A stretch of DNA of 64,000 nt. Source: Thermoanaerobaculia bacterium (GTDB lineage: Bacteria; Acidobacteriota; Thermoanaerobaculia; UBA5066). The position numbers and the translations under genes are program-made. The notes under the pieces were generated by a model. That model ran no database searches and was not told where the DNA came from. It saw only the letters and a list, made by a program, of their open reading frames with translations. This document shows positions 5,919 through 48,891 of this stretch, one piece after another. The stretch is taken from positions 62,001 through 126,000 of the forward strand of contig JAJVIN010000046.1 of the NCBI GenBank assembly GCA_022071945.1, in the 5' to 3' direction. The stretch's first letter is position 1. Every line of letters begins with the position of its first letter.

Positions 5919-7456
5919 GGCGTCCCCCTCTCCCGGATCCATCGGTCGCGCAGTTCGCCCTTGACGACCTTCCCGTAGGCCGTCCGAGGGAGCGCCTCGA
6001 CGAAGGCGACCTCTTTGGGGAGCTTGTACTTCGCGAGCTTCTCGGCGGCGAAGGCGAGGAGCGCTTCCCCCGCGACTTCCTGGCCGGGTCTCTTCACGAC
6101 AAATGCCACGCCCATTTCGCCCCACACCTGATGGGGAACTCCCACCACGGCGGCATCCTGTACGGCCGGGTGAAGGAGCAGTTCCCCCTCGATCTCGGCC
6201 GGGTAGATGTTGACGCCTCCCGAGATCAGCATGTCCTTGCGGCGGCCGGCGATCGTGAAGAACCCCTCGTCGTCGCGCCGGGCGAGGTCACCCGTGTGGA
6301 AGAACCCTTCGGAGTCGAGAGCCGCCGCTGTCGCCTCCGGATTCCGCCAGTAGCCTTTCGACACGTGCTCTCCACGCAGGAGCAACTCCCCCACCTCTCC
6401 CACCGGGACCTCACGCCCCGTCTCGTCGACGAGCCGTGCCTCGGTGAACATCAGCGGCTTGCCGATGGACCCCTTCTTTCGCGCCGACTCCTCGACCGTC
6501 ATCGCGAAGCAGTTGACGCCCACCTCGGTCAGGCCGTAGCCCTGCTTGAAGACGATCCCGCGCTCCTGATAGGCCTCGATGAGGTAGAGCGGCAGGGGCG
6601 CCCCCCCGCTGATGAGCCATCGAACGGATTCGAGGTTGGCGGCCGAAAAGCAAGGCGCCTCCAGGAGCAGCTTCCAGATCGTCGGAACTCCGAGAACGAC
6701 GGTGCAGCGCTCGGCCTCGACCGTTCTCCAGATCTCGTCGGGGTCGAACCCGGCGTGAAGGACGACCGTGCCGCCGATGGCGATGATGGGCATGAGGAAC
6801 GCCCCCAGCCCTCCCGCGTGGTACAGCGGCGTGAAGACCGGGCTGACATCGTCTTCCCTCAGCTGCCAAGACACGGCCGTGTTGTAGGCGTTCCAGGCCA
6901 CCATCCGGTGCGGGACCATGACGCCCTTCGGCTTGCCCGTCGTGCCGCTCGTGTAGAGGAGCGCGTAGACGTCCTCTGGCGCGCACGGCGTCCGCGAAAA
7001 GCCAGGGGCCGGGGACTCGGCGATCGCGGCGTGGTAGCGAACATGACTCTCCACCACCGGAGAGTCGAGGCAGATCCAGTGCGGGATGTCGACGACGGAC
7101 CGGAGCGCGCTCACCGTGTCCGCGAAGGCGCCGTCGTAGACGAGAGCGGAGAGGCCGGCATCCTTGACGATGAAGGCGATCTCGTGAGGCGTCAGGCGGG
7201 TCCCGAGCGGGACGAGGATATGGCCCGTCTTGGCGCACGAAAAGAAGACGTCCAGAAACTCGACCCGGTTGTGCGAGAGGAGGCCCACTCGCTCCCCCTT
7301 CGCGATCCCGAGCCGGTCGCGGAGAAGGCTCGCACAGCCCTTCGCTCTGTCGTCCATCTGGCGGTAGGTGAGCCTCTCGGTCGTGGCAATCGAGACCAGG
7401 CCGATCTTCTCGGGGGTGAGGCGGGCCCGCTCGCCAAGGACATCGCCGTGGATCAC
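5915..7456 (-). CDS. AMP-forming acyl-CoA ligase (ANL superfamily)
   Basis: A 513-residue ATP-dependent carboxylate-CoA ligase. The ATP/phosphate loop YTSGTTGKPKG is at 168-178. Further core motifs are QGYGLTE, HTGDLARRDDEGFF and GRRKDMLISGGVNIYPAEIE, followed by the catalytic C-terminal lysine near residue 496 in AYGKVVKGEL. All residues needed for adenylation and thioester formation are visible. Length fits medium/long-chain acyl-CoA or aryl-CoA ligases. The start is GTG at 7456, overlapping the TGA of the preceding hydrolase as GTGA and preceded by AAGGAG. It lies between two hydrolases, downstream of a KASIII-like protein and an SDR. It probably activates the acid released by a hydrolase, or the product of the KASIII/SDR pair. 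Confidence 0.92.
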   Translation of the reverse strand: MIHGDVLGERARLTPEKIGLVSIATTERLTYRQMDDRAKGCASLLRDRLGIAKGERVGLLSHNRVEFLDVFFSCAKTGHILVPLGTRLTPHEIAFIVKDAGLSALVYDGAFADTVSALRSVVDIPHWICLDSPVVESHVRYHAAIAESPAPGFSRTPCAPEDVYALLYTSGTTGKPKGVMVPHRMVAWNAYNTAVSWQLREDDVSPVFTPLYHAGGLGAFLMPIIAIGGTVVLHAGFDPDEIWRTVEAERCTVVLGVPTIWKLLLEAPCFSAANLESVRWLISGGAPLPLYLIEAYQERGIVFKQGYGLTEVGVNCFAMTVEESARKKGSIGKPLMFTEARLVDETGREVPVGEVGELLLRGEHVSKGYWRNPEATAAALDSEGFFHTGDLARRDDEGFFTIAGRRKDMLISGGVNIYPAEIEGELLLHPAVQDAAVVGVPHQVWGEMGVAFVVKRPGQEVAGEALLAFAAEKLAKYKLPKEVAFVEALPRTAYGKVVKGELRDRWIRERGTP

Positions 7457-43213: not shown

Positions 43214-43777
43214 TTGAGGAGCTTTTCGCACATCGCCGGCGTCGACGACGGCCCGTTCGTGAAGGGGCGCCGAAGAGACGTTCTCGTCGTGGCCACCATC
43301 TTCTCCGGCTCCGTTCTGACCGGCGTTCTGACGACGACCGTCCGGCAGGATGGCAGGAACTCCACGGAACGGCTGGTCTCGCTGTTCATGGAGTCCAAAT
43401 GGGCCCCCCAGCTGCAGCTCGTCATGTTGCAGGGCGTCTCGCTCGGGGGCTTCAACGTCGTGGACGTCACCACGCTCGCCCTTGAAACCGGGTTGCCGGT
43501 CCTGGTCGTCTCCCGCAAGCAGCCCGACTTCTCGACGATCAGGGAAGCCCTCACGGAGAAGGTTCCTGGCGGCAAGGGCAAGTGGGCGCTCGTCGAGAAG
43601 CTGGGGAAGATGGAGAGGATCGGGCCCGTCTTCGTTCAGCGGACCGGTCTGACATCCGAGGAGGCTGCCGAGGTGATCCGCCGCACGGCCATCAACGGGA
43701 ACATCCCCGAGCCGCTGCGGACGGCTCATCTCATCGCGGGGGGCCTCGTGACGGGCCAGAGCCGCGGCCGAACCTGA
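43214..43777 (+). CDS. DUF99 family protein
   Basis: A 187-residue protein of the DUF99 family, distantly related to endonuclease V. The family opening GVDDGPF, the segment TIFSGSVLTGVLTT, and LQGVSLGGFNVVDVTTL match. DUF99 is common in archaea and scattered in bacteria; its function is not established. The start is TTG at 43214 with GAGGAAGG 4 bases ahead. It is divergent from the PqqD-like gene with 117 bases between. Confidence 0.8.
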   Translation: MRSFSHIAGVDDGPFVKGRRRDVLVVATIFSGSVLTGVLTTTVRQDGRNSTERLVSLFMESKWAPQLQLVMLQGVSLGGFNVVDVTTLALETGLPVLVVSRKQPDFSTIREALTEKVPGGKGKWALVEKLGKMERIGPVFVQRTGLTSEEAAEVIRRTAINGNIPEPLRTAHLIAGGLVTGQSRGRT

Positions 43778-43840
43778 GACTGACTCGCCAGATCATCCCC
43801 TCCCCGTAACCCGGGTCATCGACACGCCTGTCATTCGGGC

Positions 43841-43869
43841 TTGACGAGACGAACGCACTCCTCCATTAT
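43841..43869 (+). promoter_or_regulatory. Promoter of the apbE operon
   Basis: TTGACG (43841-43846), 17 bases, CATTAT (43864-43869). The predicted start is about 6 bases before the apbE ATG, and no Shine-Dalgarno is visible there, so the mRNA may be nearly leaderless. Confidence 0.45.
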
Positions 43870-43881
43870 CCTTCTCAACTT

Positions 43882-44958
43882 ATGAGACTCAGTCTCAGTC
43901 TTCTCGTACTCTTCGGTCTCCTGGCGGCCTCTCCCCTCCCGGCCTCTCCCGCCCAGGGGGCGGATCCGTGTCCCGGCGGCAGCGAGCCGGCCGTGCGCGC
44001 CCGGTACCTGATGGGGACCGTCCTCGAGGTCCGGCTGTGGGTTTCCCCGGACGAGTCCAGCGCCAGCGCCCTCGCCGAAGCCGTCTTCTCGGAGGTCTCC
44101 CGGATCGAGCGCGTGGCCTCGACCTGGAGGGACGACTCGGAACTCTTCCGCCTCCAAGAAGGGGCCTGTGGTCCGCAGCTTTCCGAGACCCTCGCGGACC
44201 TTCTCTCCGAGGCGTTCCGGTTCCACCGGGCGACCGCCGGAGCCTTCCATCCCGCGCTCGGGAGCCTCGTCGCCGCCTACGATCTCCGCGGAGAGGGCCG
44301 GTGGCCCACGGATCTCGAGCTCGCCGAGGCCCTCGAAGCGACCCGCCTCGACACGGTCCGGCTCGATCCCGTCGCGAGGCGCCTGGTCCGCAGGGACCCG
44401 AGGCTGAAATTCGATCTGGACGGCATCGCGAAAGGCTGGGCCCTGGACCGAGCGGCCGAGATCCTCAGGCGGGAGGGGGTCCGCACGGCCCTCCTGAACT
44501 TCGGGGGGCAAGTCCTGGCCATCGGTCCACCCGAGCCCTGCGCGCCGTTCTCGATCCGGATCGCTGTTCCTGGTTCCCTGACCTCTCTCCCGAAAGACCT
44601 TCCGCTCAGGGACGGCTCGATCTCGACGTCCTCCAATTCCGAACGAGCCCGGATTCTCGCCGGGAGAAAGGCGGGGCACCTTCTCGACCCTCGAACCGGA
44701 CGCTTCGCCCCGTTCGAGGGATCCGTGTCGGTGCGGGCCCGGACAGCGGCAGCGGCCGATGCGCTGTCCACCGCCCTTTTCGTCTGCGGACCGGAGCCGG
44801 TCCCTTCGTGTCTCTCTGACGAGATGAGGAGAGAAGAGGACGTCGAGGCCGTCTACCTGATTCCCGAGGGCGGGGGTTCGTCTGTCCCCAGGACGCCGGA
44901 GGGTTCACCCGCCCCAAATCCCAGCCGGGCCCTGCCCGGGTCACAAAGCCGAGGTTGA
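43882..44958 (+). CDS. apbE: FAD:protein FMN transferase (ApbE), exported
   Basis: A 358-residue ApbE-family flavin transferase with a signal peptide (1-26, ending SPAQG). It moves FMN from FAD onto a threonine of target proteins outside the cytoplasm. Motifs seen: YLMGTVLEVRLW, FDLDGIAKGWALDRAAEI, LLNFGGQVLAIG, STSSNSER and HLLDPRTGR, which contribute to FAD and magnesium binding. The C-terminal 30 residues are Pro/Ser-rich and unusual. The probable substrate is encoded two genes downstream (46255-46827), which has a TGAT flavinylation site. Starts just after the predicted promoter. Confidence 0.93.
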   Translation: MRLSLSLLVLFGLLAASPLPASPAQGADPCPGGSEPAVRARYLMGTVLEVRLWVSPDESSASALAEAVFSEVSRIERVASTWRDDSELFRLQEGACGPQLSETLADLLSEAFRFHRATAGAFHPALGSLVAAYDLRGEGRWPTDLELAEALEATRLDTVRLDPVARRLVRRDPRLKFDLDGIAKGWALDRAAEILRREGVRTALLNFGGQVLAIGPPEPCAPFSIRIAVPGSLTSLPKDLPLRDGSISTSSNSERARILAGRKAGHLLDPRTGRFAPFEGSVSVRARTAAAADALSTALFVCGPEPVPSCLSDEMRREEDVEAVYLIPEGGGSSVPRTPEGSPAPNPSRALPGSQSRG

Positions 44959-44959
44959 A

Positions 44960-46285
44960 ATGCCGCGAATGACCACAACGGCCGCTCTCCTGGCCCTCTC
45001 TTGCTCCCTGATGGCCCACTGTGCCGTCGCCCAGCCCGTCGAGGCGCAAAAGGAGCCCGCGAAGGAGAGCCCCAGCAACGAAGAACTGGCCCGCCAGATC
45101 GAGGTTCTGACGAAGGAACTCGAGTCGATGAAGCTCGGCGAGGCCGCCACCAAGGACGACGCCGGCCCTGGGAAGGGTGTCTACGGGCTCGGCCCGGCCG
45201 CCTCGAAGGTCTACACCAAGAAACAGGGCCTCTCGATAGGAGGCTACGGAGAGTCGATCTACCAGGCCTTTGAGAGCGAGAAGGAAAACGGAACGGCTGC
45301 CGGCAAGACCAACGAGTGGGACTACCTGCGCGCCGTTCTCTATGTCGGCTGGAAGTTCTCGCCGGTCTTCGTCCTGAACACCGAGATCGAGTACGAGCAC
45401 GCTTCCACGGGGAAGGGGGGCGAGGTGTCCGTCGAGTTCGCGACCCTCGATGCCCTCCTCTCCAGATACGCCAACGTCCGGGCCGGAATGGTCCTGGCTC
45501 CCATGGGTCTCGTCAACGAGATGCACGAGCCGCCGACCTTTCTCGGAGCCAGGAGGCCCGACGTCGAGACCCAGGTCATCCCCTCCACCTGGAGGATGAA
45601 CGGAGTGGGTCTCTTTGGCGAGGCAGGCCCCGTGGCCTACAAGCTGTACGTCACGGAGAGTCTGAACGGAACCGGATTCACCGCCTCCTCGGGTATCCGG
45701 GGGGGACGGCAGAGCGGCGCGCGCGCGAAAGCCGACGATCTGGCCGTGACCGGGCGGGCCGACCTCGTCTCGGTCCCGGGTCTTCTCGCCGGGGTCTCCT
45801 TCTTCACCGGCAACACCGGCCAGGGCCTCGTCGTCGACGGCCGGACCGTGGAAGCCCGCACGACGCTTCTCGACCTTCACGCGGAGTACCGCCACCGCGG
45901 GCTCCAGGTCCGCGGGGTCTTCAGCCGGGGCACCATAGACGACGCCGCCCTCCTGAACAGGGCCGCCGGTCTGACGGGGAACAAGTCGATCGGCGAGACC
46001 ATCGAGGGCTGGTACCTCCAGGGCGGCTACGACGTCTGGCCTCTCCTTTCCGAGAACGTCTCGACGGCCCTGACACCCTTCGTCCGCTATGAGGAGGTCG
46101 ACACGCAGAAGTCCGTGCCGGCCGGCTTCTCTAAGGACCCGGCCAACGACCGGACGATCCTGACGGCGGGCCTCGACTTCAAACCCCTTCCCCAGATCGC
46201 CGTGAAGCTCGACTACCAGAGTTACAAGAACGAAGCCAAGACCGGGATCTCGCAGTGGAACTTCGCCATCGGCTACCTCTTCTAA
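44960..46285 (+). CDS. Outer-membrane porin-like protein with N-terminal coiled coil
   Basis: A 441-residue exported protein. The signal peptide is 1-24 (cleavage after CAVA). A short helical, coiled segment (about 35-58, NEELARQIEVLTKELESM) precedes a beta-barrel-like region with alternating aromatic strands and a terminal aromatic residue (QWNFAIGYLF), as in phosphate-selective porins O/P. The coiled N-terminus could reach the peptidoglycan. It begins 2 bases after apbE ends and its end overlaps the FMN-binding protein gene by 31 bases. It may pass small molecules or ions needed by the flavin system. Confidence 0.8.
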   Translation: MPRMTTTAALLALSCSLMAHCAVAQPVEAQKEPAKESPSNEELARQIEVLTKELESMKLGEAATKDDAGPGKGVYGLGPAASKVYTKKQGLSIGGYGESIYQAFESEKENGTAAGKTNEWDYLRAVLYVGWKFSPVFVLNTEIEYEHASTGKGGEVSVEFATLDALLSRYANVRAGMVLAPMGLVNEMHEPPTFLGARRPDVETQVIPSTWRMNGVGLFGEAGPVAYKLYVTESLNGTGFTASSGIRGGRQSGARAKADDLAVTGRADLVSVPGLLAGVSFFTGNTGQGLVVDGRTVEARTTLLDLHAEYRHRGLQVRGVFSRGTIDDAALLNRAAGLTGNKSIGETIEGWYLQGGYDVWPLLSENVSTALTPFVRYEEVDTQKSVPAGFSKDPANDRTILTAGLDFKPLPQIAVKLDYQSYKNEAKTGISQWNFAIGYLF

Positions 46286-46827
46286 AGACCGCGGTTCTCC
46301 TGGGGCTCCTGTCGGCTCCGGGAGCACCGGCCAAGGTCTTCGAAACCCAGGCGGCGGCCCTGGCCCGCGTCTTCCCGCCACCGGCGCAGGTGACGCGGGC
46401 CACCGCATTCCTGACGGCTGAGCAGAAAGCGCGAGCGGCCAAGCTCGCCGAGGCTCCGGTCGAATCCGCCGTGGTGACCCGCTACGGCGGGTTCACCGCA
46501 TCCGGCGAGGCGATCGGCACGGCCTACTTCGACACGCACACCGTAAGGACGGCGCCGGAAGTCTTGATGATCGTCGTCGGGCCGGACCGGACGGTCCGGT
46601 CCGTGGACGTCCTCGCCTTCGCCGAGCCCGAAGACTACCTTCCGCGCGAGGGGTGGTTGAAGCGCCTCGACGGAAGAAGGCAGGAAGAAGGGCTCTTCGT
46701 TGGAAGGGCCCTGGCGCACGTCACGGGGGCGACCCTGACGACACGCGCGATTGCCGCTGCAGTTCGTAGAATCCTCGCTCTCGACTCCATCCTGGGTCCG
46801 CCAGCCGCGCCCGGGAAGAAACCCTGA
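46255..46827 (+). CDS. Exported FMN-binding-domain flavoprotein
   Basis: A 190-residue protein. The signal sequence is 1-26 (LLKTAVLLGLLSAPGAPA). The mature part has the FMN_bind fold of RnfG/NqrC (EVLMIVVGPDRTVRSVDVL, EPEDYLPREGW) and the flavinylation motif TGATLTT, where Thr160 would carry FMN by a phosphoester bond added by ApbE. The GTG start at 46255 lies inside the porin gene's last codons. Such proteins carry single electrons outside the cytoplasmic membrane. It is followed 8 bases later by the four-helix membrane protein. Confidence 0.88.
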   Translation: MELRHRLPLLKTAVLLGLLSAPGAPAKVFETQAAALARVFPPPAQVTRATAFLTAEQKARAAKLAEAPVESAVVTRYGGFTASGEAIGTAYFDTHTVRTAPEVLMIVVGPDRTVRSVDVLAFAEPEDYLPREGWLKRLDGRRQEEGLFVGRALAHVTGATLTTRAIAAAVRRILALDSILGPPAAPGKKP

Positions 46828-46835
46828 GGAGATCC

Positions 46836-47381
46836 ATGAAGTACCTCGAATCCGGCGGTCATGAAAGAAGTGGTCTGATGCGCCTCACGCTCGGTGGAGC
46901 GCTCGTCTTCCTTTTCGGCCTCTGGGTGTCGAGCTTCGGGATGTTCTTCTCGCGCTTCAGCCTGGATCCCCAGAGCGTGATCGCCTATTACAGAGGATCC
47001 GAGGAGACCTTTCAGCCCCCGCGGACGTTCGGATCCATGGTCGAGGTGACGCACGGGCACATGGCGATGATGGGTGTCGTCCTCTTGCTGCTCACCCACC
47101 TGGCCATCTTCCTTCCCGTCAAGAGAAGCGTGAAGGTTGCCGGCATCATCGGCACGTTCGCGGCGGCGTTCCTCAACGAGGCGTCGGGCTGGCTCGTGAG
47201 GTTCGCCGGCCCGGCCTTCGCGCCCCTCAAGCCGATCGCGTTTCTGGCCTCCCAGGGCTTCCAGATCGTCCTGCTGCTCAGCCTCGCCGCGGGCCTCATT
47301 CGAGCGGGCAGGCGAGCCCCGAGCCCGATGCCCGAACGCGAGGCCGCGGAGGGGCCCGCGGACGCCGAGCCGACGATCTGA
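46836..47381 (+). CDS. Four-helix membrane protein, probable redox partner
   Basis: A 181-residue membrane protein of no family I recognise. It has four helices at about 16-37, 72-93, 97-118 and 124-151, and a charged Pro/Glu-rich cytoplasmic tail. The second helix begins VTHGHMAMMG and contains a further His (LLTHLAIF); the first helix is preceded by another His. Histidines spaced on such helices are compatible with heme or quinone binding, but no CxxCH is present. GAGGAG lies before the ATG. As the last gene after apbE, porin and flavoprotein, it could pass electrons from the quinone pool to the flavoprotein. This is inference. Confidence 0.6.
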   Translation: MKYLESGGHERSGLMRLTLGGALVFLFGLWVSSFGMFFSRFSLDPQSVIAYYRGSEETFQPPRTFGSMVEVTHGHMAMMGVVLLLLTHLAIFLPVKRSVKVAGIIGTFAAAFLNEASGWLVRFAGPAFAPLKPIAFLASQGFQIVLLLSLAAGLIRAGRRAPSPMPEREAAEGPADAEPTI

Positions 47382-47451
47382 ACTCTCTTCTCTCGGTCCC
47401 TCTCGGCCTGGTCCGCCCGGAGGGGCACCGCCGACGGCGGGGTGAGAGGCC

Positions 47452-48891
47452 CTACCTCGCCCCCTTGCCTCCCAGGACGGCCGGGATCGTCTTCAGGAGG
47501 ATCTTGACGTCGAGACCGAGGCTCCAGTTGTCGATGTAGGCGAGGTCGAGCTCCATCCAGTGATCGAAGCTCGGAATGTCGTTCCTCCCCGAGACCTGCC
47601 AGAGCCCCGTCAGCCCCGGCTTCATGGAGAGGCGCCGGCGCTGCCAGCGCTCGTAGCGAACGACCTCCTCGGGAATGGGAGGCCGGGGTCCGACGAGCGA
47701 CATCTCCCCCTTCAAGACGTTCCAGAACTGCGGGGCCTCGTCGAGCGAAAAACGCCGGATGAACCGGCCGAGGCGCGTGATCCTCGGATCGGCCTTCGAC
47801 TTGAAGGCGGGTCCCTCGTGCTCGTTGAGATGGAACACGTCCTGGAGCTGTTCCTCCGCCCCCTCGATCATCGTCCGCAGCTTGAACAGGGTGAACGGAC
47901 GGCCATTCAGCCCGCAGCGGGTCTGCTTGAAGAAAGCGGGTCCACGCGAGCTGATCTTGATGAGGAGCGCGGAGAGAGCGATGGGGACCAGGTAGATGGC
48001 GCCCAAGAGAATCGCGAGGGCGACATCCATCACCCTCTTGGCCATCATGGCGAAGTCATCCGCGGGCGTCGTGGTGAAGGTGAGAAGAGGCGTGCCCTGG
48101 AATTCCTCCAGCTCGACCCTCGCGATGACGTGCGGGAAGAAGTCGAGGACGAGCCTCGTGCGCACACCCATCTCTTCGCACATCAAGAAGACATCCTCGA
48201 GACGTTCGAGGTCACCGCGATCCACCGCGAGGATCACCTCGTCGATCGGGAACGACGTCACGATGGCCGGAAAGTCCTGCACGGTCCCGAGGATCGGAAT
48301 CCCGCCGGCCGTGGTCCCCTGCGGCGACGCGGCGGGCTTTTCCCGGATGACTCCGAGGAGCCGGAGACCCCACCAGGGGTGCTGGTGGATGAGCCGGGCC
48401 ATGTTGTCCGCGCGCGGCGTGTCACCCAGCAAGACCACCGAGCGGTAATTGAAGCCGAGCGCCCGGACCCGGCGGGCCGTCATCCGGACGGTCAACCTCT
48501 CGATCGTCAGGAACAGGATGCTCAGGCCGCAGAAGATGGCCAGGAACGGACGGGAGATGAAGTCCCACCTCGCGCCGTAGACGAAGAGGGCGAGGAGAAC
48601 CGTTCCCATGGCGGAAACCTTGAGCACGACGGCGGCCTCGTCTCTGAGACCCGAGGTCCGGTGGCTCTTGTAGGCCCGGCCGAGAACCAGAAGGACGGTC
48701 CAGATGACGACGATGGGTCCCGCGAGGGTGAGATAGAGGGAAAAGGGGGCGAGCTTCGTGAGCCGGCCCGGGAAGAACGAGGTCACAAGCTCGCTGCGGA
48801 TGAAGTAGGCGGCAACGAAGGCGGCCAGTATGGAGACCAGGTCGGCCGCATAGAGAAACGCCGCCACGGTTCGGGCGCGCTGTTTCAGCAT
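47452..48891 (-). CDS. Exopolysaccharide polyprenyl-phosphate glycosylphosphotransferase
   Basis: A 479-residue polyisoprenyl-phosphate hexose-1-phosphate transferase (WcaJ/WbaP type). Four or five N-terminal helices, a CoA-binding-like central domain (VVLLGDTPRADNMARLI), then the catalytic bacterial sugar transferase domain (about 285-475) with SRGPAFFKQTRCGLNGRPF, LVGPRPPIPEEV and KPGLTGLWQVSGRND. It starts repeat-unit assembly on undecaprenyl phosphate at the inner membrane. Followed on the same strand by three glycosyltransferases upstream in the map (48914-52103). Confidence 0.93.
   Translation of the reverse strand: MLKQRARTVAAFLYAADLVSILAAFVAAYFIRSELVTSFFPGRLTKLAPFSLYLTLAGPIVVIWTVLLVLGRAYKSHRTSGLRDEAAVVLKVSAMGTVLLALFVYGARWDFISRPFLAIFCGLSILFLTIERLTVRMTARRVRALGFNYRSVVLLGDTPRADNMARLIHQHPWWGLRLLGVIREKPAASPQGTTAGGIPILGTVQDFPAIVTSFPIDEVILAVDRGDLERLEDVFLMCEEMGVRTRLVLDFFPHVIARVELEEFQGTPLLTFTTTPADDFAMMAKRVMDVALAILLGAIYLVPIALSALLIKISSRGPAFFKQTRCGLNGRPFTLFKLRTMIEGAEEQLQDVFHLNEHEGPAFKSKADPRITRLGRFIRRFSLDEAPQFWNVLKGEMSLVGPRPPIPEEVVRYERWQRRRLSMKPGLTGLWQVSGRNDIPSFDHWMELDLAYIDNWSLGLDVKILLKTIPAVLGGKGAR

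Follow-up and report, generated by a model that had tools for sequence, protein, structure and literature searches.

A conserved operon encoding ApbE, a porin, an FMN_bind flavoprotein and an unnamed four-helix membrane protein in a Thermoanaerobaculia bacterium, with a possible role in iron uptake

Gene content of the locus

The window analysed here is a 64,000-nucleotide stretch of the genome of a Thermoanaerobaculia bacterium (assembly GCA_022071945.1, contig JAJVIN010000046.1, positions 62,001–126,000). Within it, four plus-strand genes are packed into 3.5 kb (window positions 43882–47381): apbE, a porin gene, the gene of a flavoprotein with an FMN_bind domain (FMN, flavin mononucleotide) and the gene of a four-helix membrane protein, here called TM4. 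The features of this operon are as follows.

43841–43869, plus strand: sigma-70-type promoter-like site (TTGACG, 17 nt, CATTAT), by consensus match only
43882–44958, plus strand: apbE, FAD:protein FMN transferase (FAD, flavin adenine dinucleotide), 358 amino acids (PF02424, E 1e-56)
44960–46285, plus strand: predicted outer-membrane porin with an N-terminal coiled-coil-like stretch, 441 amino acids (AlphaFold2 barrel, Foldseek)
46255–46827, plus strand: FMN_bind (RnfG/NqrC-like) flavoprotein, 190 amino acids, GTG start (PF04205 just above the cut-off)
46723–46734, plus strand: TGAT flavinylation motif T157-G158-A159-T160 in the FMN_bind protein
46836–47381, plus strand: TM4 ("type 2" four-helix membrane protein), 181 amino acids, putative membrane electron donor
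47052–47060, plus strand: H73-x-H75, early in helix 2 of TM4
47097–47099, plus strand: H88, 13 residues beyond H75, also in helix 2 of TM4

A single base separates apbE from the porin gene, the FMN_bind gene overlaps the porin gene by 31 bases, and TM4 follows after 8 bases. An earlier note on this DNA had described the same company of porin, ApbE, TGAT flavoprotein and four-helix protein, and the tight same-strand set was confirmed, the porin by a weak barrel model and Foldseek. The start given there, 43841, is the −35 element of the promoter-like site; the first gene begins at 43882. This promoter-like match was the only one in positions 43700–47600, where shuffled sequences averaged 0.1. 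By eye, the upstream flank contains ruvB and a lipid-kinase-like gene, and the downstream flank a sugar transferase gene on the other strand.

ApbE matched Pfam family PF02424 with 192.8 bits (cut-off 25.6). The match of the flavoprotein to PF04205 was marginal (22.4 bits against a cut-off of 22, E 1.9e-4; 23.9 bits in a genome scan), and its best PDB relative was RnfG (E 0.01). At the position of its TGAT motif, any residue followed by GA[TS] was present in 75/75 aligned rows. The genome scan indicated that the 6.17 Mb genome encodes exactly one ApbE and one FMN_bind gene, so that within the FMN_bind family ApbE has a single possible substrate. This strengthens the enzyme–substrate pairing already proposed in the earlier note, and the motif and family strongly predict that the FMN_bind protein is flavinylated by ApbE. 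The FMN_bind domain with its GAT motif is common to RnfG/NqrC and this protein, which differs in being stand-alone with a signal peptide (by eye); no RnfG or NqrC was found in its own genome.

Conservation of the gene set

TM4 was detected in 9 of 196 related genomes and in 11 of 396 genomes sampled across the phylum, a set that overlaps the 196 and in which some matches were weak. It was also present in 5 of 9 genomes of the phylum to which the metagenome-assembled genome carrying locus L011 belongs. An FMN_bind gene lay beside TM4 in 18 of 23 relatives (window included), namely 14 of 15 close and 4 of 8 distant ones, the close exception being the frameshifted locus L012. ApbE was encoded within the retrieved stretch in 15 of these 18 TM4–FMN_bind loci; two further loci reach contig edges (L014, L033) and L019 has no apbE near. 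Over 15 type 2 loci (105 pairs) the distances of TM4, FMN_bind and porin correlated (r 0.89, 0.91 and 0.92), and label permutation, for TM4 versus FMN_bind only, gave 0/2000.

The FMN_bind profile matched 69 of the 196 related genomes at E 1e-8. Stretches were fetched for those matches that lacked TM4, and the resulting set comprised 80 loci: 17 of type 2 plus 63 others, of which some are fragments of one gene (window not counted). Counts over these loci are counts of related genomes and not of independent events. A same-strand apbE was present in 51/80 loci, and a porin accompanied FMN_bind in 74/80. The four-gene set is real and conserved, not a chance arrangement.

The porin had no significant Pfam or NCBIfam family. 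AlphaFold2 modelled it as a 16-stranded barrel with low confidence (predicted local distance difference test, pLDDT, 55.6), the Foldseek matches of this model were general porins (best E 4e-9), and a distant homologue in L035 matched Porin_O_P (Pfam, E 1e-6). Encoding a porin together with a periplasmic redox protein, as in the 74 loci, is also what porin–cytochrome conduits do, and would suit extracellular electron transfer: TM4 would take electrons from quinol, and the flavoprotein, in or under the porin, would pass them over the outer membrane to minerals or shuttles. However, the 16 strands of the model are the size of general diffusion porins, and going by established structures a pore of this kind, in contrast to the 26-strand MtrB, is too narrow for a 16–18 kDa domain. 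The module includes no gene for a surface redox protein, and the iron-regulatory signs described below indicate assimilation. We therefore consider this alternative unlikely, and the electron transfer across the outer membrane that the earlier note had suggested finds no support. Going by the strand number of the weak model and the usual sizes of porins, the porin may instead be an entry for small ferric species. In two loci from another phylum, an extra gene for a 259-amino-acid secreted, possibly outer-membrane protein is inserted between porin and FMN_bind (L045:5550–6329 and L047:2916–3695).

The four-helix membrane protein TM4

TM4 is a single-copy gene in the genome and matched no Pfam or NCBIfam family at significance and no PDB sequence at E up to 10. 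Its only Pfam matches below cut-off were DUF7139 and PF00504 (Chlorophyll a/b-binding; 16.3 bits, cut-off 22.3), the latter dismissed as chance. By its sequence TM4 is an unnamed protein family, which agrees with the earlier impression that the protein looked new. Searched against plasmids, TM4, the FMN_bind protein and the relative from L040 gave no match. The structural model contains four long helices (residues 13–41, 64–91, 97–124 and 131–159) at modest confidence (pLDDT 65.9). Foldseek returned no match at E 0.001 or better, and all VIA-align matches were common helical bundles; their Z scores, at most 10.8, are below the informative level of the tool for bundles and exclude no family. 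The positive-inside rule suggests that both termini are cytoplasmic and that H73-x-H75 lies towards the periplasm.

TM4 has no cysteine and hence no CxxCH. The earlier note had correctly placed a His-x-His early in helix 2 and had overlooked the third conserved histidine, H88, in the same helix. Loss of conserved histidines in homologues, or of the association with ApbE and FMN_bind, had been named there in advance as grounds for abandoning its proposal; H73 and H75 were invariant (22/22 aligned rows), H88 was present in 17/22, and TM4 kept its FMN_bind neighbour at the frequencies given above. H88 occurred in 17/18 rows linked to FMN_bind and in 0/4 unlinked rows (L037–L040). The 22-row alignment leaves out L012 (TM4 alone, frameshifted, an Eisenbacteria record), though this locus is counted among the 23 relatives. 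Since the conserved histidines lie on helix 2 alone, heme binding by TM4 would need a dimer.

Some distant relatives deviate from this arrangement. The proteins of L039:6041–6790 and L040:4610–5353 lack the third histidine and carry CxxCH in the loop between helices 1 and 2, which suggests a heme-c version of the TM4 membrane module. L037 and L038 encode, near their TM4 relatives, a P-type ATPase and a multicopper oxidase (by eye), pointing to a copper setting, with no recognised FMN_bind or ApbE gene. Proteins resembling FMN_bind (hhalign probability 23%, E 9e-4) with PGEP in place of TGAT are nevertheless encoded there (L037:884–1465, L038:10168–10731) and are possibly flavin-less forms. In L048 a 216-amino-acid NusG_II-like protein (by eye; 6786–7436) is encoded between TM4 and apbE, and the third histidine of its TM4 is displaced.

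Interchange of TM4 with a second membrane protein

Two membrane proteins interchange at one slot of the operon. Type 1 was present in 60 of the 80 loci and type 2, that is TM4, in 17, while no locus had both. Three had neither, of which L106 and L110 end at a contig edge and L109 is a weak FMN_bind match. The type 1 profile match usually starts 9–66 bases after that of FMN_bind. Both types occur in the window's own family: type 1 in G002, G008, G010 and G012, type 2 in G000 (the window's own genome), G003, G004, G005, G009 and G011. A tree of FMN_bind proteins, made with a quick method, with some long branches and without L105–L111 except L108, required 3 changes of type, compared with 16 when labels were shuffled.

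Type 1 is likewise a four-helix protein (helices by eye). It has four invariant histidines (60/60, 59/59, 59/59 and 59/59 rows) at positions 54, 72, 121 and 135 of the L064 reference row; helices 2 and 4 bear two each (by eye). Four invariant histidines on two helices are typical of di-heme b proteins, and the slot that TM4 fills is therefore probably an electron-transfer slot. An H-x-H is found at the matching place in most type 1 rows too (first His 44/60, second 60/60). When six type 1 proteins were scanned, one gave a sub-threshold DUF4405 match (14.5 bits, cut-off 26.7). Downstream of type 1, a further ApbE-like gene lies on the opposite strand in L060, L063, L065, L070 and L086.

The exchange with type 1 bears on whether TM4 is a redox protein at all. 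It could be an assembly, anchoring or metal-binding partner, with electrons coming from elsewhere; the restriction of conserved histidines to helix 2, the incomplete conservation of H88 and the copper setting of L037 and L038 would all fit such a role. Against it stand the alternation with a protein bearing four invariant histidines in two helices and the heme-c site of the relatives in L039 and L040, and we judge a non-redox TM4 to be quite improbable.

Iron genes and a Fur-box-like palindrome

Clustering of neighbouring open reading frames gave Fur, FTR1 and FeoB, and Pfam confirmed examples. Genes for at least one of the three were present in 14/80 loci, including the type 2 loci L017 and L018; FTR1 was beside the module in 5/80 and FeoB in 6/80. 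The order Fur–FTR1–apbE–porin–FMN_bind–type 1, all co-directional, was seen in L056 and L068, and Fur–apbE–porin–FMN_bind–type 1 in L064 and L094. FeoB was ahead of apbE in L054, L063, L071, L078, L098 and L103, with L054 and L103 running FeoB–apbE–porin–FMN_bind–type 1.

At the start of the window operon lies one further feature.

43883–43897, overlapping the apbE ATG: perfect 7-1-7 palindrome TGAGACTCAGTCTCA, Fur-box-like, 12/14 to TGAGAATnATTCTCA

Palindromes were scored out of 14 against TGAGAATnATTCTCA, which we take to be the Fur-box consensus; as it was chosen after the window site had been seen, and before counting, the window site is no independent evidence. Of 68 loci (the window among them; six loci truncated at the 5′ end were skipped), 23 had a site of at least 11/14 within a stretch of 340 bases about the start of the operon, against 15 of 2064 equal background stretches from the same loci (Fisher 7e-27). 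Sites of at least 13/14 occurred in 5/68 loci and 0/2064 background stretches. Rows of sites of at least 11/14 precede the porin gene: five sites in L011, of which one is perfect, four in L045 and five in L047. Palindromes were also present before Fur in L056, L064 and L068, and in L017 and L018 they lie in the divergent gap between Fur and FTR1. With a wider stretch of 500 bases, and Fur taken as the operon start where it leads, 31/80 loci had a site and 37/80 a site or an iron gene. These signs are spread over more than ten family codes and beyond the phylum.

In the window, TGAGACTCAGTCTCA begins 14 bases past the end of the promoter-like −10 and is predicted to bind Fur. The sites before Fur in L056 and L068 are letter-for-letter identical to it, and at up to one mismatch the window site was its sole occurrence in the 6.17 Mb genome. 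That genome has four FUR-family genes, one of which, on the same contig as the window (C7, 162297–162647), encodes a protein that shares 53% identity with the Fur in the operon of L056; another FUR protein (28% identical) is encoded beside a KatG-like gene (by eye). It has two FeoB genes and no FTR1. Elsewhere in it, on contig C15 (L121:257–8400), a DtxR-like gene and FeoB are followed by a 454-amino-acid coiled-coil-like open reading frame, a protein with four CxxCH and a FUR-family gene beside a KatG-like gene; this cluster is maybe a cytochrome counterpart of the module.

Alternative substrates and directions were weighed on these neighbourhoods. The earlier note's other suggestion, that an imported compound is reduced, has support, and the neighbouring genes indicate that this compound is probably iron, which had not been proposed there. 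A different compound, such as an organic acceptor or an oxyanion, reduced in respiration or detoxification, would agree with a porin suited to small-solute import and with the DHOR-type di-heme gene by the module in the distant loci L035:5490–6734 and L036:9194–10420 (Pfam on the L036 protein only). But no recurrent terminal reductase was recognised among the flank gene clusters, whose recognised recurrent functions were Fur, FTR1 and FeoB, and this alternative appears improbable. Electrons might also flow in reverse, with flavoprotein and TM4 accepting them from Fe(II) oxidation in FTR1-type transport and returning them to quinone. The abstract of one account (PMC11966278) gives a predicted coupling of FTR1-type transport in FtrABCD to the oxidation of Fe(II), and FTR1 adjoins the module in the five loci mentioned. 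In six loci, however, the linked importer is FeoB, whose substrate is Fe(II) itself, and the window's own genome has FeoB and no FTR1, which makes reverse flow very unlikely. Because FeoB is linked to the module as well as FTR1, iron reduction is favoured over oxidation.

Proposed function

We hypothesize, with moderate confidence, that the operon encodes a ferric reductase module, based on flavin and under Fur control, that serves iron uptake and is not an outer-membrane electron conduit. Iron limitation would relieve repression at the palindrome that overlaps the start of apbE, and small ferric species would enter the periplasm through the porin. ApbE would attach FMN to the FMN_bind protein at Thr160. 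As a probable b-heme homodimer that uses H73/H75 on the periplasmic side and H88 farther inside the membrane, TM4 would draw electrons from the quinol pool and reduce this flavin, which in turn would reduce Fe(III) to Fe(II). An inner-membrane importer would then take in the Fe(II): FeoB in the window's own genome, and FTR1 or FeoB encoded alongside in relatives.

Several observations weigh against this hypothesis. The palindrome TGAGACTCAGTCTCA scores only 12/14 and lies inside coding sequence, where it encodes RLSLS of the signal peptide, and coding constraint may contribute to it. No iron gene adjoins the operon in its own genome, and no box of at least 11/14 was found within 1 kb of feoB at the two feoB loci there; together with the uniqueness of TGAGACTCAGTCTCA in the genome, this leaves a general Fur consensus for the organism unsupported. 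No iron sign of any kind was present in 43/80 loci. Box, iron gene and nearby apbE are missing from every one of the 17 loci in genus g17 (family f8), and likewise from the type 2 loci L019 and L033. As for TM4, the model is poor, fold matches are limited to common four-helix bundles, and helices other than helix 2 carry no conserved histidine. Nor did profile comparison support a common family for type 1 and type 2 (hhalign probability 2%, E 0.008, in one comparison that omits L107 and L108 and, on the type 2 side, also L037–L040).

As an observation apart, several of the genus g17 loci (L073–L093) share GAAGACCAACTCTCG, or a near form of it, 70–103 bases before the porin gene.

Relation to known systems

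Flavinylation clusters have been tied to iron before: in the sections available of one survey (eLife 2021, PMC8238504), ApbE and a flavinylated periplasmic protein occur by iron transporters or under Fur and are read as assimilatory iron reduction. The membrane partners given there are PepSY-, NapH-, MsrQ-, DsbD- or NQR/RNF-like, and the iron-tied clusters use PepSY-like proteins or P19/FTR1. The operon described here is alike in its ApbE, its flavoprotein and its iron/Fur link, whereas TM4 and type 1 match no such partner family above cut-off. The terms "Acidobacteri" and "porin" are absent from the main text of that survey. It also describes DUF3570 flavinylated proteins of about 420 amino acids encoded with apbE, a possible comparison for the porin, which however has neither a DUF3570 match nor an [ST]GA[ST] motif. 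No description of an ApbE–porin–FMN_bind cluster was found in paper titles and abstract openings, a search outside which subscription papers and supplements lie.

The nearest published small membrane cytochromes, going by the portions of one report at hand (mSystems 2024, PMC11334425), are DUF4405, a small b cytochrome encoded near apbE with six helices and four central histidines, and the ferrosome-associated FezC, whose heme sites were modelled as formed by homodimerisation. The arrangement of FezC is the one we infer for TM4. TM4 differs from DUF4405 in having four helices and conserved histidines on helix 2 alone, and it had no PF14358 match at E up to 1. FtrABCD/P19 ferrous iron transport is alike in coupling a periplasmic redox protein to an FTR1 permease; P19/cupredoxin was unrecognised among the flank clusters, for which no dedicated scan was run, and the window's own genome lacks FTR1. 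In Bifidobacterium breve, an apbE mutant was sensitive to iron chelation, which its authors, in the text available, read as Fe-S repair (PMC5449479).

Significance

Among systems of flavin-based extracytosolic electron transfer, we take the operon to be a new variant whose membrane component is unnamed and whose function is most likely iron uptake. A more far-reaching picture is tentative as a whole: TM4 would be a new class of quinol:flavoprotein reductase, a homodimer in which one helix of each subunit supplies the histidines that hold two b hemes; together with ApbE, flavoprotein and porin it would make up a complete Fur-regulated system of reductive iron uptake in Acidobacteriota and at least one other phylum; two unrelated membrane proteins would serve the same flavoprotein; and relatives would have swapped the flavin for a fused heme c.

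The operon, its promoter-like site and its box are defined exactly enough for testing. Type 1 and type 2 (TM4) are two unnamed membrane families, each a predicted electron feeder of a flavinylated protein, and their alternation, together with the CxxCH relatives of TM4, offers a natural comparison of membrane electron routes to a periplasmic flavin or heme. Acidobacteriota are abundant and little cultured. With its flavoprotein family in 69 of 196 related genomes, the module may be a common route to iron for this phylum.

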